Shown here one piece after another: positions 9,024 through 30,087 of a DNA stretch of 64,000 nucleotides. Under the pieces are notes generated by a model, which worked only from the letters and a program-made list of their open reading frames with translations, ran no database searches and was not told the DNA's origin. The DNA is from Nibricoccus aquaticus. Lineage in GTDB: Bacteria > Verrucomicrobiota > Verrucomicrobiia > Opitutales > Opitutaceae. The stretch is from positions 3,241,501-3,305,500 of the forward strand of contig NZ_CP023344.1 of the NCBI RefSeq assembly GCF_002310495.1. Reading direction: 5' to 3'. Both the position numbers and the translations under genes were made by a program. Each line of letters starts with the position of its first letter. The stretch's first letter is position 1.

Positions 9024-9140
9024 CGCGGTACGGACCTGAGGCACTGTTTATTAAGTGGCAGCGATAGTGTTTAGCTGCGAGCTGTCGGATGGTGCTACTG
9101 GCTCATTGAGTCCCCGAAACCACATGGATTTCTTGTTAGG

Positions 9141-9188
9141 GATGGCTGCCCGGGTAGGGATCGAACCTACGACCAAGTGATTAACAGT
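9141..9188. repeat. attL: Left attachment repeat (truncated tRNA-Asn copy)
   Basis: These 48 bases are identical to 30011-30058, where they form the 3' part of the tRNA-Asn gene from the anticodon loop to CCA plus two bases. Here the 5' half of the tRNA is missing, so this is a displaced tRNA end and not a gene. With the integrase 98 bp further in, it marks the left end of the island. Confidence 0.93.
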
Positions 9189-9285
9189 TTGTTGCTTTAG
9201 GTATTTTCGTTTGTCTGCAACTGTCGTTTTCTGTCGGCACTTAAATGCTTGTTTTCATAGGTAATAATCTGCGTAAGTTCACGAC

Positions 9286-10668
9286 ATGATCAGACAGGAG
9301 GAAGTAGTTGAGGATGTCAAAAGTGGCCAAGAAGTGGCCAAGCAAAGTGGCCAAGCAAGCCAATCTCGCTTCCATGTGGATTACTGGAAAGTACGGCTTT
9401 ACCGGAAGACCTTCACACGCGATGGCGTCCGTAGCGAAGTGCCCGAGTGGTCCGTGCGATTGCAGCATTTGGGGCGGCGGGAGGCTTTCGCCTTGGGAAG
9501 CACCAATGCCCAAGTGGCGTCGGCCAAGGCGAAGCAGATAGCTACTTTTCTGGATGCTAACGGCTGGGAATCGACTCTCGCCAAATTCAAACCTGGAATG
9601 ACCCCGAAGGTGGAGGTCTGCTCGTTGGGGGAATTTCTCGCTGACGTGGCGATGCGCAGCCATCTGAAGCCAATCACTATTCGGCGCTACGCAGTGAAGC
9701 TGCGTAAAATCATATCTGATGTTACCAAAGCGGATGCAGGAGCCAAAGGAAAAGCCAAGCGCTCCAAGTACGACTATGTTAACGGTGGGCTAAAGGCGTG
9801 GCTCGCGAAGGTAGATTCTCAATCGCTCGACGTGCTTACTCCTGAGGTGATCACGACCTGGCGCAACGAGTATGTCGCTCGTGCTGGAGCGGATCCGATC
9901 AAACGAAAATCAGCCGAGCGCTCGGCCGCTTCGTACATGCGGGGCGCACGTTCGCTATTCACCGCGGACGTGCTTGCGACCTTAAAAGTGAAACTCTTGG
10001 GAAATCCATTCAGCGGCGTAAAACTGAAGGATCCAGGACCGCAGCGTTACCGTTCTGAAGTCAGTGCTGAATGGCTGCTCGCCTGTGCTCAGAGCGAGCT
10101 TCGAATCGAGCATCCGCAGCAATTTCTAGCGCTATTCCTGTGCTTATGGGCGGGTCTGCGTCGGAAGGAAGCCGATCTTCTGATGTGGGACCAAGTCGAT
10201 TTCCAGAAGGGTCAGATTCAAATACGCCGCACGATCTACTTTGAACCCAAGACCGAAGAAAGTCAGCGTGTCGTCGACTTGCCCGATGAGGCTCTGAACG
10301 TACTTCGGTTATTTAGAAAGGAATCTAAGTCGGAGTTCTTACTTGAGGGTAGCGATCCGAATCCAGCGGCGACCTACGAATACTATCGTTGCGACAGTAC
10401 ATGGAGAGATCTTCACCAATGGCTGCGCGGGAAAGGTATTCTGCAAAAAAAGGCGATTCACTCTCTACGCAAAGAAAGTGGTTCACTTATCGCCTCAGCG
10501 CATGGGATAGAAGCTGCACGTCAGCATCTGGGCCATCGAGACATCCGCACCACGTCTTCTCACTACGTGGATAAAAAGAAGCGCATTGAAGTGCATCTTC
10601 CGCTCGGTAACTGGCCGGACAATGCCACCGTGGTTTCAAGTTATGGGTTTGGGGCGGCTAAACTCTAG
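9286..10668 (+). CDS. int: Tyrosine-type site-specific integrase
   Basis: This 460-residue recombinase should catalyse integration and excision at tRNA-Asn. The catalytic set is visible in order: Arg292 in WAGLRRKEADLL, His392-x-x-Arg395 (HSLRK), His417 in QHLGHRD, and nucleophile Tyr427 in SSHYVDKK. The N-terminal 110 residues (DYWKVRLYRKTF, FALGSTNAQVASAKA) look like the arm-binding region of integrases from Verrucomicrobia, followed by a SAM-like core-binding domain. It is the first gene inside the left att repeat. Its first 25 codons overlap three direct repeats that also occur at the right end (9321-9356). Confidence 0.93.
   Translation: MIRQEEVVEDVKSGQEVAKQSGQASQSRFHVDYWKVRLYRKTFTRDGVRSEVPEWSVRLQHLGRREAFALGSTNAQVASAKAKQIATFLDANGWESTLAKFKPGMTPKVEVCSLGEFLADVAMRSHLKPITIRRYAVKLRKIISDVTKADAGAKGKAKRSKYDYVNGGLKAWLAKVDSQSLDVLTPEVITTWRNEYVARAGADPIKRKSAERSAASYMRGARSLFTADVLATLKVKLLGNPFSGVKLKDPGPQRYRSEVSAEWLLACAQSELRIEHPQQFLALFLCLWAGLRRKEADLLMWDQVDFQKGQIQIRRTIYFEPKTEESQRVVDLPDEALNVLRLFRKESKSEFLLEGSDPNPAATYEYYRCDSTWRDLHQWLRGKGILQKKAIHSLRKESGSLIASAHGIEAARQHLGHRDIRTTSSHYVDKKKRIEVHLPLGNWPDNATVVSSYGFGAAKL
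9319..9356. repeat. Left cluster of integrase-type direct repeats
   Basis: Three copies of AAGTGGCCAAG start at 9321, 9332 and 9345. A 26-bp stretch (9319-9344) is repeated exactly at 29942-29967 near the other end of the island. The same short repeat near both att sites is the pattern of arm-type integrase sites. The cluster lies within the 5' coding part of int, which constrains both functions. Confidence 0.65.
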
Positions 10669-25533: not shown

Positions 25534-25924
25534 AAAATAACTGGTAGTTGAGGCTGATGAATTATGCGGGATAAACGGTCTTTTTGTTTAAGAAGTGCAC
25601 CGAAATTTAACCGAAACTGATCACGAAATTCAAGTGCCACTGACTGCACTTGAAGGAATTTGCGTGGTTTTTCGTCATTGGATTGAGCGAGAACTGTGAA
25701 AGAGCGGAGCGGTGTGTTTGCGTGTTTGCACGCATGAATTTCGAACGCCTGCACGTCCTACGTCTCCGTAGGGTATTGCGTCTCTGTAACCAAGAAATAA
25801 TGACGAGCTCTGCAGGCCTCTGAGCTCGTCGAAGCCAGCGACCCCGGCGGAACGATGCGCCTACCCTTTTTTCGGTAGGAGCAGTCCATTGTGTGGGTGA
25901 TCGTGCTCCGGCCTTCTGTTGGGC
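25534..25924. other. oriT: Candidate oriT region upstream of the relaxase gene
   Basis: This 391-bp stretch without a gene lies before the MobF gene and holds strong inverted repeats. CCTACG-TCTC-CGTAGG is at 25757-25772, and a perfect 9-bp pair GACGAGCTC/GAGCTCGTC at 25802-25810 and 25822-25830. The palindromic stretch CTACC-N9-GGTAG is at 25861-25879. Transfer origins usually lie next to the relaxase and carry such hairpins beside the nick site. The exact nick cannot be assigned. Confidence 0.5.
25861..25879. repeat. 19-bp repeat, copy 1 (flanks the mob genes)
   Basis: The sequence CTACCCTTTTTTCGGTAGG occurs here and again, without mismatch, at 28999-29017, so the relaxase and its downstream partner gene lie between two copies. 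Each copy is itself an inverted repeat (CTACC/GGTAG). The second copy codes for the last residues of a protein (LPFFR and stop). This copy could be the relic of a similar gene end or a protein-binding site. Confidence 0.6.
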
Positions 25925-28639
25925 ATGATCACACCGGGTGTCATTCATAACGGGAGGAATTACCTTACGCACCATCTTCGGAAGAACGACTACTGGGCTG
26001 AAGGCGAGCGGGAGGTGCAGGGCGAATGGATCGGTCTGGCTGCGGAAGCGCTGGGACTATCGGGAACGGTCACCGATGATCCTTTCGACGCCTTGCGCGA
26101 GAACCGACATCCGCAGACGGGTGAGCAGTTGACCGCGCGTGAACGAAAGCACCGCGTGGCGTTTTCGGACATCCAACTTTCCGCGCCGAAAGATGTGAGT
26201 GTACTGGCGATGGTCGGAAACGACGAGCGCGTGCGCGAGGCGTTCATCGAGTCCGTGAAGATGGTGCTGGGCGAGATGGAGCGCTATGCAGCGGTTCGTG
26301 AGCGGCGTGGTAACGCGGCGACTACCGAAGCGTTTCGACTAACTGGCAATTTTGTCGGCGGGCTTTTCATTCATGACGCGAGCCGGGCTTTGGATCCTCA
26401 GTTGCACGCGCATGCCGTGCTCGCGAACGCGACATGGGATGCGGAGCGCAATGCGTGGTTCGCGCTGCAGCCGGCGGAGATGATCCGCGCTTCGCCGTAT
26501 TTGCGGCAGGTGCTCTATCGTGAACTCGCCGGTCGGATCCGTGCGCTTGGTTACGAGCCGTATGATATGAGTTCGACCGGGTTCTCGGTTCGCGGTGTCG
26601 AGCACCTGCGCGAGCGTTTCTCGAAACGCTCTAACCAGGTTAATAAACTAGCCGAAGAACTTTCGGCGAAAAAGGGGCGCAAAGCATCGAAGGGTGAAGT
26701 CGAAGTGCTCGTGCGGGAATCTCGTGGCGACAAACTGACCGAAGCGAGCACTGAGGCTGTCCGCATGAGTCAGCGCGCGGAGCTCACCAAAAGCGAAGCG
26801 CGCGGATTGGATGACCTCGTGCGCGCCGCGCGTGCCGAGCCTTTGCGTGAGCAATGGTCGCACGGCCAAGCGCGCGTCGTCCTAGATGCGGCGCTGCGAC
26901 ACGTCTACGAGCGATCCAGCGTAGCGCGCGAAGGAGTCGTGTTAAGCGCCGCGCTGGAATTCCATCCGGACTTCTTTCACTGGCGCGAGCTTCGCGAAGC
27001 GCTGGCAACCCATCCGGATGTCATCCGCAAGGAAGGGGAGATGACGTTGCGATCGATCTGCCGTGAAGAGGCGCTTACGGTGCAACGCGTCGTTAACGGA
27101 AAGAATCAACGCTTCGGAATAGGCGGTGCCGGCGATCTGCCGGAGACACTAACCGTCGGGCAGAGAAATGCCGCTAAAGCGATTCTCCGAAGTCGTGACT
27201 TTGTGAGCGTCCTGGTCGGTGACGCGGGTACCGGCAAGACGACCGTTCTCACAGCCATTGAGCAATCCCACCTGAAGTCAGGCGGGCAGCGCTTCATGCC
27301 GCTGGCACCGACAACGAAGGCGCGCGATGCACTGGTGAAAAGCGGTTTTGAAAGTGCAGATACCGTTCAGCAGTTCCTCGTGAGCCAAGGTCTCCAATCG
27401 CAAGCGGTCGGCCGTGTCGTGTTGGTGGACGAAGCTGGTCTGCTGTCCACGCGGCAACTCGATCAACTCACGCAGATCACGTATAATCTTCGCGCTCGTC
27501 TGCTCCTCGTTGGTGACACGAAACAGCATTACAGTGTGGAGCGGGGTGACGCGTTGCGGAATGTAATCATCAATTCGCAGACGCCGGTGGCGCGACTCGC
27601 GGAGGTGTTGCGCCAACGCAATGAAGAGGATCGTCAGTTCAGTCGCTTGCTCGCGTCGGGCGAAGTCGCCGACGCCTTTGAGTACGCCGATAGGCGAGGG
27701 CTTATCCGTGAAGCGGAAACGGACGATGCACTGTTCGCGAAAGCGGCTGAGCATTACGTCGCGAATCAAGTGAAGGGAATCGAAACGCTGGTCGTGATTC
27801 CGTTCTGGGACGAGATCGATCGCTTCAACGCGCAGGCACGTCCGGCACTACGCGACGCTGGCCTCCTCGGTGAAACTGAAGTGGTCCGCGAAGCCGTGAA
27901 GCCGCTAACTTGGACGCTACAGCAGAGGGCGCATTGGAATCAGTACCAGGTAGGCGACCGGTTGCTCTTCGCGCGCGACACGCGATTTTTTAAACGCGGT
28001 GCCGCTGCCGAAGTGGTGGCGATATTGCGGAACGGGCTCATCGCGAAAGGCGCAGACGGTCGTGAAGCCAAGATCACGCGAAAGCAAAGCACGGCGTTCA
28101 ACGTTGGGCGCGTGCAGGCTTTGTCTGTCGCGAAGGGTGATAAAATTTTGATCCGCGGTCATCATCCTCAAAGCGGGCTCGCGAACGGAGATTTCAAAGA
28201 GGTCGCGCTCGTGGAGCCGGAAACCTGCAGGGTCGTTTTCACGGACGGAAAGGAACTGCCGACTGATTTCGCGGCGTGGACTTACGGTCACGCGCTCACG
28301 TCCTATCGTTCTCAAGGCACCACTTCGGAAGAATCGTTGCTCGTGCTGGGCGAAGTCGCGACACGTGCGCTTGCACGTCGCCAGTTCTACGTCGGCAACA
28401 CTCGGTTTCGAGGCGCGCATGCGATCTACGTTTCTCAAAAGGAGGAGATTTTCCGCCGCCTCTCCCAGCCTGACCGCGGTCGTGAGTTAGCGACTGAATT
28501 TGTTGAGCGGCGCAGACTCGCGGAGCGCGAGCAGATGACTTCTCGCGTGCAACAAAATCTCAGCGATCTCGTTCGCAGGGCACAGCTGAGCGACGCGATG
28601 AGAGAAGAACAGTCTAAGGGACAGCGTTATTCTCTATGA
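25925..28639 (+). CDS. MobF-type relaxase/helicase (TrwC/TraI-like)
   Basis: From ATG at 25925 this is 904 residues. The TrwC relaxase domain (about 1-290) has Tyr residues near the start (GRNYLTHHLRKNDYW), the GEWIGLAAEALGLSG block and the metal-binding LHAHAVLANAT (His161, His163). The SF1 helicase part (about 410-850) has Walker A GDAGTGKTT (432-440) and DEAG (502-505). It should nick and unwind the island for conjugative transfer. The usual paired Tyr-Tyr is here Tyr-Leu, so fewer catalytic tyrosines may be used. Neither a coupling ATPase nor a type IV secretion gene is present. Confidence 0.92.
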   Translation: MITPGVIHNGRNYLTHHLRKNDYWAEGEREVQGEWIGLAAEALGLSGTVTDDPFDALRENRHPQTGEQLTARERKHRVAFSDIQLSAPKDVSVLAMVGNDERVREAFIESVKMVLGEMERYAAVRERRGNAATTEAFRLTGNFVGGLFIHDASRALDPQLHAHAVLANATWDAERNAWFALQPAEMIRASPYLRQVLYRELAGRIRALGYEPYDMSSTGFSVRGVEHLRERFSKRSNQVNKLAEELSAKKGRKASKGEVEVLVRESRGDKLTEASTEAVRMSQRAELTKSEARGLDDLVRAARAEPLREQWSHGQARVVLDAALRHVYERSSVAREGVVLSAALEFHPDFFHWRELREALATHPDVIRKEGEMTLRSICREEALTVQRVVNGKNQRFGIGGAGDLPETLTVGQRNAAKAILRSRDFVSVLVGDAGTGKTTVLTAIEQSHLKSGGQRFMPLAPTTKARDALVKSGFESADTVQQFLVSQGLQSQAVGRVVLVDEAGLLSTRQLDQLTQITYNLRARLLLVGDTKQHYSVERGDALRNVIINSQTPVARLAEVLRQRNEEDRQFSRLLASGEVADAFEYADRRGLIREAETDDALFAKAAEHYVANQVKGIETLVVIPFWDEIDRFNAQARPALRDAGLLGETEVVREAVKPLTWTLQQRAHWNQYQVGDRLLFARDTRFFKRGAAAEVVAILRNGLIAKGADGREAKITRKQSTAFNVGRVQALSVAKGDKILIRGHHPQSGLANGDFKEVALVEPETCRVVFTDGKELPTDFAAWTYGHALTSYRSQGTTSEESLLVLGEVATRALARRQFYVGNTRFRGAHAIYVSQKEEIFRRLSQPDRGRELATEFVERRRLAEREQMTSRVQQNLSDLVRRAQLSDAMREEQSKGQRYSL

Positions 28640-29016
28640 TCAACGACCCTGTCATCAGGAGGCCAAAGCATCATTTCGAAACGGCCAATCAACCGTCCGG
28701 CGTTACATTCGACGATGGCGATGCCCGTACGCATTTCCCGTGGTCGCATTTCACACTGATGCGCTACAGCTATTCCGAACCCGATGTGATCAAGATCATG
28801 ATAGGGGAGTGGCTCGTGACGGTACGGGGGCACAACCTCGAACCACTCATTGAGGCTATCGAGAAACGTTCGCTGGCAAAACTGCGAGCCCAGCCCGAGC
28901 TCATGAATGATCGCAAATACGAGATCGATTCGTTCGCCACCGGAATTCGTCTACAGCCCAAAGCGCGCGGGGCTGACGGCCAGCCAGCGCAAAGCGAACT
29001 ACCCTTTTTTCGGTAG
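28636..29016 (+). CDS. Small protein coupled to the relaxase
   Basis: This 126-residue protein overlaps the relaxase stop by 4 bp (ATGA), so it is translationally coupled to it. The core (FPWSHFTLMRYSYSEPDVI, then IMIGEWLVTVRGHNLEPLI and EAIEKRSLAKLRAQPE) looks like a compact alpha/beta fold with no catalytic motif. It ends in ELPFFR, encoded within the second copy of the 19-bp repeat. I do not recognise the family. An accessory role in mobilization, or in control of relaxase, is suggested by the coupling only. Confidence 0.7.
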   Translation: MINDPVIRRPKHHFETANQPSGVTFDDGDARTHFPWSHFTLMRYSYSEPDVIKIMIGEWLVTVRGHNLEPLIEAIEKRSLAKLRAQPELMNDRKYEIDSFATGIRLQPKARGADGQPAQSELPFFR

Positions 29017-29045
29017 GTGACGTACCACTTTTTCGGTAGATGCGC
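28999..29045. repeat. 19-bp repeat copy 2 and a degenerate third copy
   Basis: CTACCCTTTTTTCGGTAGG (28999-29017) is identical to 25861-25879 and overlaps the stop codon of the preceding gene. A degenerate copy, GTACCACTTTTTCGGTAG, follows at about 29020-29039. The three copies with the same centre and arms suggest a binding site or a recombination scar around the mob genes. Confidence 0.5.
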
Positions 29046-29084: not shown

Positions 29085-29321
29085 ATGATCACAACGAAAA
29101 CACTTCCGCGTCAGGCTGAGGCAACGGACGGACTTACGGGCCGCAAATTCAGCAAAGCAAAGATCATCGCCGGGCGGCTCGGCGTCTGCACTCGAACGAT
29201 TTTCCGTTGGGCTGATGACGGCAAAATCGCCCGGCATAAAATCAATGCGCGGGTAGTGCTCTTCGATGAAACAGAGGTGATGGAGTTAATCCGGTCGGCG
29301 AGGGTGGGTGGTGTACTCTGA
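29085..29321 (+). CDS. Excisionase-like HTH protein
   Basis: This 78-residue protein is dominated by a MerR/Xis-type helix-turn-helix (KIIAGRLGVCTRTIFRWADD, then GKIARHKINARVVLFDETEV). Small proteins of this kind act as recombination directionality factors and bend DNA next to the att site. It sits about 700 bp from the right att repeat, on the side opposite int. Excisionase is therefore the best guess; a transcriptional repressor of the element is the alternative. Confidence 0.7.
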   Translation: MITTKTLPRQAEATDGLTGRKFSKAKIIAGRLGVCTRTIFRWADDGKIARHKINARVVLFDETEVMELIRSARVGGVL

Positions 29322-29840: not shown

Positions 29841-29941
29841 CTAATCCGCGAAAACGGAGGGTTAATGCTGTCAGCCACTACCTTTCGTTAGGAGTTCGGC
29901 GCAAAATCGACTGTGGTAAAAACCGCGCCCCGGAGGATCAA

Positions 29942-29967
29942 AAAAGTGGCCAAGAAGTGGCCAAGCA
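29942..29967. repeat. Right cluster of integrase-type direct repeats
   Basis: These 26 bases match 9319-9344 exactly and hold two copies of AAGTGGCCAAG 11 bp apart. They lie 43 bp inside the right att repeat, whereas the left cluster lies about 130 bp inside the left one. Arm-type integrase sites have this unequal, both-ended arrangement. Confidence 0.65.
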
Positions 29968-30010
29968 TCTTTTCAGAAATTTCTTAGAAGTTGCGCATCT
30001 CATTGATGGA

Positions 30011-30058
30011 GATGGCTGCCCGGGTAGGGATCGAACCTACGACCAAGTGATTAACAGT
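30011..30058. repeat. attR: Right attachment repeat (inside tRNA-Asn)
   Basis: These 48 bases are identical to 9141-9188. They cover the CCA end, acceptor strand, T-arm, variable region and anticodon arm of the tRNA gene on the minus strand. Recombination here leaves the tRNA intact. Confidence 0.93.
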
Positions 30059-30087
30059 CACCTGCTCTGCCACTGAGCTACCAGGCA
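30013..30087 (-). tRNA. tRNA-Asn (anticodon GTT)
   Basis: Read on the minus strand, the gene folds into a full cloverleaf. The acceptor stem is TGCCTGG/CCGGGCA with discriminator G, and the D-stem is GCTC/GAGC. The anticodon stem GGTGA/TCACT carries the loop CTGTTAA, and the T-arm is GTAGG/CCTAC around TTCGATC. CCA is encoded. Its 3' part is the integration target of the island. Confidence 0.97.

Follow-up and report, generated by a model that had tools for sequence, protein, structure and literature searches.

Why does an integrase gene begin with a row of short direct repeats, and why do the same repeats recur at the other end of the island in which the gene lies? This question was raised by int, a tyrosine integrase gene in a window of 64 kb from Nibricoccus aquaticus (the whole stretch of DNA that was analysed, 64,000 nucleotides). 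Two direct repeats of 48 bp (9141-9188 = 30011-30058) bound an island of ~20.9 kb in this window, and the right one spans the 3′ part of a tRNA-Asn gene (30013-30087, minus strand). These 48 bp are the longest match between both island ends, and the second longest is a piece of 26 bp (9319-9344 = 29942-29967). The cargo includes the tyrosine integrase, a HipBA pair, a Schlafen/AlbA-type protein, a type I restriction-modification set, a TrwC relaxase, and a small HTH_17-like protein. Among 14 of the island ORFs scanned against Pfam were int and the TrwC relaxase, which, like the 48-bp att repeats, would be expected of an integrative mobilizable element, and the relaxase suggests that the island is mobilizable. 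The sequence CCCTTTTTTCGGTAGG was found at 29000-29019, at the end of an ORF of 126 aa, and also near the far end of another island (L030) of the same genome. The main features of the island are as follows.

9141..9188, unstranded: left att core, displaced 3′ part of tRNA-Asn, 48 bp, direct repeat of 30011-30058
9286..10668, plus strand: int, encoding a tyrosine integrase of 460 aa (Phage_integrase PF00589 above cutoff, E 2.6e-11)
25919..28639, plus strand: TrwC-type relaxase/helicase
29085..29321, plus strand: HTH_17-like protein of 78 aa, candidate excisionase (RDF), 26.8 bits, just below the 27-bit cutoff
30011..30058, unstranded: right att core, at the intact tRNA-Asn gene, direct repeat of 9141-9188
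30013..30087, minus strand: tRNA-Asn (GTT), integration target

Short repeats distinct from the core flank the att core on both sides, in the window and also in related elements. The first-pass annotation had placed three copies of one repeat in int codons 12-24 and a recurring piece of 26 bp at 43 bp from the right att site, and both statements proved correct. With the int ATG at 9286, positions 9319-9356 correspond to codons 12-24, exact copies of AAGTGGCCAAG begin at 9321, 9332, and 9345, and the gap from 29967 to 30011 is 43 bp. Five sites of the arm type were predicted.

9321..9331, plus strand: predicted int-side arm-type site 1, AAGTGGCCAAG, exact match
9332..9342, plus strand: predicted int-side arm-type site 2, exact match, 11 bp beyond site 1
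9345..9355, plus strand: predicted int-side arm-type site 3, exact match, 13 bp beyond site 2
29944..29954, plus strand: predicted tRNA-side arm-type site 1, exact AAGTGGCCAAG
29955..29965, plus strand: predicted tRNA-side arm-type site 2, exact AAGTGGCCAAG

Many further copies in the genome, which had been named as evidence against arm sites, were not found. The 11-mer AAGTGGCCAAG has 9 copies genome-wide (4.73 Mb), the five listed above and four scattered singles, against 5 for the reversed control pattern. Since five of the nine copies are here and the rest are scattered singles, their clustering at the island is not due to chance. About 10 bp ahead of the first repeat on each side (9311-9315 and 29934-29938), an AGGAC/AGGAT box with an A run was noticed; by eye, the box is present at the int-side end of most of the 12 tRNA-Asn elements and at about four to six of the ten tRNA-side ends, and it would, with the A run, explain the conserved D.K of the integrase tail.

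The close relatives of the element were collected by a pattern-based scan with one genome per species, which gave 7. All 7 carried the same tRNA-Asn core ahead of int and direct repeats in the first int codons (two in L044, three in the others), and those with three copies retained the spacing of 11 and then 13 bp. The repeat sequence was divided by lineage among these close relatives, being AAGTGGCCAAG, AACCGGACAG, or AACGGGACAG, and CCGGACAG is the repeat motif of a sister element. The conservation of the repeat among related elements, a check proposed with the first-pass annotation, was therefore borne out for the architecture, while the motif sequence itself varies with the integrase. Wider sampling by order, phylum, and class yielded matches in 20 of 273, 9 of 387, and 39 of 384 genomes at 1e-20, 1e-60, and 1e-70, respectively, and added family members at other tRNAs with further different motifs.

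We scanned the 130 bp ahead of the N-terminal domain in the 59 loci with a domain hit, which include close relatives (L034/L036, L103/L104, L119-L121), and control windows were taken inside the same genes. Repeats with 9/10 identity or better and a spacing of exactly 11 bp were found in 41 of 59 loci, compared with 6 of 1180 dinucleotide shuffles and 0 of 59 control windows. At any spacing from 7 to 15, these numbers were 47 of 59 loci, 48 of 1180 shuffles, and 3 of 59 controls. By the scans used, no such repeat was present in 12 of 59 loci of this first set and in 10 of 49 loci of a new set. No relative of the window integrase was found in viral contigs, and the family profile found 7 distant ones there. 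Among these viral loci, L119-L121 (much alike) and L122 lacked a 9/10 repeat, and L123-L125 carried a repeat of 12 bp, so that the latter are counted in the 47 of 59 and stand outside the 41 of 59; the domain hit of L123 is doubtful (E 1.9). From the 59 loci, 50 arms were obtained: L113, L114, and L119-L125 were left out, L022 and L050 were typed by hand, and the search was widened for L101.

We compared the ends of 24 att-paired elements, whose second att was on the same contig in 19 and on another contig of the same genome in 5 (L012, L042, L043, L046, L054); for the elements outside these pairs, the far att was absent from the fetched stretches or the contig ended. Within the 200 bp ahead of the far att, the cognate motif was found at 17-22 of 22 positions in 23 of 24 elements, or in 22 of 23 without the L054/L070 pair, which was picked by motif since its genome has two left ends and is thus not independent. 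The motif was located 37-77 bp from the att match. The mean match of cognate pairs was 20.25/22 against 14.4 in permuted pairs, with a maximum of 16.6 in 20,000 permutations. In 20 of the 24 rows the cognate end came first, alone or in a tie, and the cognate ends of L042, L043, and L046 ranked second or third because other elements share their arm class. The element that failed (13/22, the chance level) was L030, the second family member in the genome of the window (G000:C1:1088275-1089516). This element carries a 9/10 repeat at 11 bp by int, and its far att lies ~15 kb downstream without a matching motif. Two other features of the ends were observed. In L044, L043, and L042, the DNA immediately to the left of the left att carries arm repeats of a different class, with two clear copies in L044, a single one in L043, and degenerate repeats in L042; this would be expected of tandem tRNA-Asn islands with neighbours of differing arm class. 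At the right ends of L061, L062, L060, L067, and L070, a hairpin was seen by eye between the tRNA-side arms and the tRNA, possibly a tRNA terminator that is apparently borne by the island.

The position of the int-side repeats was related to the core. The distance from the core end to the first repeat was 130-133 bp in all 12 tRNA-Asn elements and 114-151 bp in 11 other elements, where the core end was set by eye from the tRNA match. The first repeat, on the other hand, starts anywhere from 57 nt after to 62 nt before the int start codon in all measured elements; in the 12 tRNA-Asn elements it begins 23-57 nt past the start codon. The distance to the core is constant while the start codon floats. 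Thus, the core, and not the start codon, fixes the position of the sites.

Among the 50 loci, the repeats are coding of necessity in 14, which lack any later start, and in another 26, the window among them, provided that translation begins at the upstream start; for the window int, GTG codons at 9334, within the repeats, and at 9376, past them, are possible alternative starts. Three loci had no upstream start, and 7 had an in-frame stop between repeats and domain, so that a position inside codons is not essential. In two of these 7 (L106 and L117) the stop sits between repeat copies and could be a recent break. In codons for the same amino acid, the repeats showed silent differences at 3 of 66 and 0 of 60 positions, and the domain after them at 178 of 317 and at 170 of 294, counted in two arm classes of four sequences each, whose pairs are not independent. 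At the level of sequence, a constraint on the repeats as DNA is demonstrated, which runs through the codons of a predicted disordered tail: residues 1-24, mostly encoded by the repeats, had a pLDDT of about 41 in the AlphaFold model.

The tail is followed by the part of the protein that may read the repeats. Lambda integrase binds short repeats away from the core with its N-terminal domain, and its sites lie outside int. The corresponding features of the window integrase are as follows.

9361..9597, plus strand: predicted arm-binding domain, codons 26-104 (three strands and helices, pLDDT 95)
9457..9459, plus strand: codon of R58 (covariation with arm position 6)
9478..9480, plus strand: codon of R65 (covariation with arm positions 5 and 7)

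The predicted secondary structure fits the three strands and a helix of lambda-type arm-binding domains. The best structural matches of the N-terminal model in VIA-align included an AP2 domain (Z 4.4) and the integrase arm domains 3ju0 (4.2), 3rmp (4.1), and 2wcc (2.5), all of which were weak and stood beside unrelated rows of similar Z. The solved arm complex of lambda integrase is 2wcc, and the likeness of the window domain to the reader of the lambda P′ arm is weak by this measure. Foldseek gave no match to the N-terminal model at E 0.001 or better. In the remainder of the protein, R292, K322, H392, R395, H417, and Y427 were invariant in 20 of 20 aligned integrases; an RKHRH pentad is named in the accessible part of PMC8138268, and on our reading of that pentad these six would be the catalytic residues. 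The integrase frame of L045 stops early (333 aa from the ATG) and is likely a broken copy, yet this element has arm sites at both ends.

In partial Mantel tests (n=50), the arm motif was correlated with the N-terminal domain given the catalytic part (r=0.33, p=0.0005) and not with the catalytic part given the N-terminal domain (r=0.005, p=0.46), although kinship inflates both the Mantel and the mutual-information values and neither corrects for the tree. For covariation of single positions, the arms were registered by a weight matrix blind to the protein, and 47 of the 50 were used (L036 and L104 were dropped as near-duplicates and L117 for its unclear register). With redundancy cut at 75% (n=43, 657 tests), the family-wise 95% line was exceeded by the residue-position pairs 65-5, 65-7, 58-6, 58-5, and 41-9. 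With a cut of 55% (n=34), 58-6 and 65-5 passed and 65-7 fell just short (z 5.2 vs 5.34), and with a cut of 45% (n=25), 65-5, 65-7, and 58-6 passed. In the first set (n=43), R58 occurred with G6 in 32/32, K58 with T6 in 3/3, Q58 with T5 in 7/7, R65 with C7 in 27/30, and E or D65 with G7 in 8/9.

A new set was drawn from two more order samples. It comprised 49 further loci, 39 with a repeat and 32 of them nonredundant, and L163 was omitted, as its place matches that of L040. Here (n=32) R58 occurred with G6 in 17/17, K58 with T6 in 3/3, E65 with G7 in 4/4, and R65 with C7 in 24/28, while the rule for Q58 and T5 was weakened from 7/7 to 8/12. On a tree of the catalytic part (n=46, L045 excluded for its early frame end), residue 65 changes 12 times; in 6 supported independent pairs, position 7 changed in step with it in 5.4 and against it in 0.0 (median p 0.0625), on a tree built by a quick method in which 13 of 43 inner branches were starred and long branches meet. 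Arginine usually contacts guanine and acidic residues cytosine; R65 with C7, which faces G in the opposite strand, and E or D65 with G7 agree with this. Residues 58 and 65 covary with the arm motif, and the rules hold in most of the 32 new integrases.

The domain also seems to be mobile relative to the rest of the gene. L041 and L054 come from one genome and share the same tRNA core; the identity between them is 87% in the catalytic part and 49% in the N-terminal domain. The nucleotide identity of this pair jumps ~210 nt into the domain, from 0.43-0.60 to 0.7-0.9. The rise lies at the same place in L041/L043 and L040/L042 and is more gradual between the window int and L046. The domain and the sites thus appear to move together. 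In the circular form of the element, the far arm, the core, the near arm, and the domain codons would be adjacent, and one exchange could shift them all. We hypothesized, with a confidence just short of even, that a specificity cassette, contiguous within ~530 bp of the circle, is made up of both arm clusters, the core, and the codons for the domain that reads the arms, and that it is exchanged as a whole between integrases of similar catalytic part. Islands at the same tRNA would so obtain different arm addresses, keeping tandem neighbours from cross-acting, and with a binding site in every gene the residue-to-base code would be readable from many genomes.

The family-wide repeats of 11 bp, the same motif at both ends, the fixed distance to the core, and the covariation with the predicted arm-binding domain strongly support the arm-site reading of the first-pass annotation. 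The repeats in the window are very probably the arm-type sites of the island's integrase. That they are instead operators of another protein of the element, either the HTH_17 excisionase candidate or the HipB-like regulator beside int, we consider improbable. Excisionases do bind attachment sites, and homologues of the HTH_17 protein of the window (40-70% identity) were found in 7 related elements; the motif, however, follows the N-terminal domain of the integrase and two of its residues, as confirmed in the new loci. HipB is disfavoured as the binder: its homologue was found in one related element (L045, 40% identity) and homologues of HipA (about 30-33%) in four (L045, L041, L019, L036), many of the islands being only partly fetched.

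The identity of both window copies over 26 bp might suggest a functionless duplication, made by chance or by recombination, but dozens of elements at several tRNA targets have the same architecture with different sequences, and silent changes are suppressed in the repeats, which leaves this origin a negligible probability. Hardly more than a token chance is given to repeats that are kept for the peptide they encode: the frame is open across them with an upstream start in 40 of 50 family loci, but the spacings of 11 and 13 bp shift the frame between copies and so give no repeating peptide, the encoded tail is predicted to be disordered, and the repeats are also present at the far, tRNA-side end.

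We thus favour the arm sites of the island's own integrase. A lambda-like tyrosine integrase would bind two tRNA-side and three int-side sites, all in one orientation, and the int-side sites would be held ~131 bp from the core, presumably through the geometry of the recombination complex. The int gene would start within the attachment site, and its first codons, for a floppy tail, would therefore spell the sites. The three-stranded sheet of the domain (codons 26-104) would read them, with R58 matched to G6, R65 to C7, and E65 or D65 to G7. This account as a whole, with two and three own-integrase arm sites around the core, a position set by the core, first codons spelling the sites, and the domain of codons 26-104 as the reader, seems to us highly probable. 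The sequences show that the sites are conserved, that the two ends match, that the spacing is kept, that the DNA itself is constrained, and that residues covary with the motif; from this we infer that Int would bind the repeats, that these residues would contact these bases, and that int expression would be lower when Int occupies attL.

The last point concerns a feedback of the integrase on its own gene. The attL spans 9141-9355 and int starts at 9286, with the core ending 97 bp ahead of the start codon and the arms lying beyond it. One further stretch is needed here.

9189..9285, unstranded: stretch from the core to the int start, where the int promoter would lie if the gene has its own in this stretch

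A consensus scan of 9100-9420 for sigma-70-type promoters found none, other promoter types being outside the scan. In this stretch, TGTC/TTGTC words ~10 bp apart were seen in most of 12 aligned tRNA-Asn elements regardless of arm class, and they are candidates for binding by a protein that is indifferent to arm class, for example the HTH_17 excisionase. By the layout of attL, Int bound across the core and the arms would cover the expected promoter region of int. With a layout of this kind, the IntS proteins of KplE1 and ICEMlSymR7A repress their own genes, as given in the accessible parts of PMC2951348 and PMC11963761. Autoregulation of int of some kind is plausible, with precedents, and we lean somewhat towards it.

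It is a different and rather doubtful proposal that the arm sites were selected to lie inside the gene for autoregulation, where bound Int would form a roadblock and the intragenic position would matter in itself. In its favour, the repeats are necessarily in frame in 14 of 50 loci and in 26 more with the upstream start, and int genes with attL at their 5′ side are often predicted, and in some cases shown, to be autoregulated (PMC2951348 and PMC11963761, in the parts available). Against it, a stop separates the repeats from the domain in 7 of 50 loci and an upstream start is missing in 3, and the first repeat keeps its distance to the core but wanders across the start codon, so that the core sets the position. 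In KplE1, moreover, no single P′ mutation relieved repression in the accessible text of PMC2951348, where P′1, which overlaps the -10 box, could not be judged.

Known systems share parts of this arrangement, as far as the accessible portions of the respective papers describe them. IntS of the KplE1 prophage of E. coli resembles the window in its tRNA target, in attL at the 5′ side of int, and in its P′ arm-type sites; its attL overlaps the int promoter and negative autoregulation was shown, but its P′1 overlaps the -10 box of int, whereas the int-side sites of the present family lie within int codons in most members (PMC2951348). The putative arm sites in attP of the cluster K mycobacteriophages (CrimD, Pixie) are repeats of 11 bp as in the window, and in Pixie a pair on one side and three on the other are in direct orientation, again as in the window, with an inverted sixth in addition (PMC3203893). 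The site consensus varies between cluster K relatives, and the N-terminal residues 17 and 19 were named as candidates; in contrast to the present family, the available text covers a handful of phages, gives no statistical code, and does not place the sites inside int (PMC3203893). In cluster J mycobacteriophages, arm-like sequences overlap the int start codon, a resemblance to the window, and self-regulation was suggested, but they form an inverted pair away from an attP at the 3′ side of int, whereas the repeats of the window are one arm of an attachment site (PMC3706429). ICEMlSymR7A IntS has, like the window, int beside attL, and also five arm-type motifs and negative autoregulation; it differs in its motif of 10 bp with another sequence and in its wHTH excisionase, and the accessible text does not place its sites in codons (PMC11963761).

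For arm sites in or overlapping int, the papers on KplE1, cluster K, cluster J, and RdfS were the nearest in one open-access library, insofar as their text was accessible. By title and abstract, this library gave nothing closer on Verrucomicrobia islands, recognition specificity, chimeric integrases, or co-evolution. The site type is a variant of known integrase attachment sites; what is unusual is that the sites are embedded in codons across the family, that modules appear to have been swapped, and that a recognition code can be read.

To our knowledge, the sequence choice of arm-binding domains has been worked out one integrase at a time. In this family, most int genes are labelled with their own site, so that genome sequence is enough to assign a site to its domain. 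Most of the new cases follow two residue-base rules, which offers a direct and cheap test of a recognition code. Moreover, int alone could point to the far end of an island and to its att arms, and the family is a source of candidate orthogonal integrases for genetic tools.
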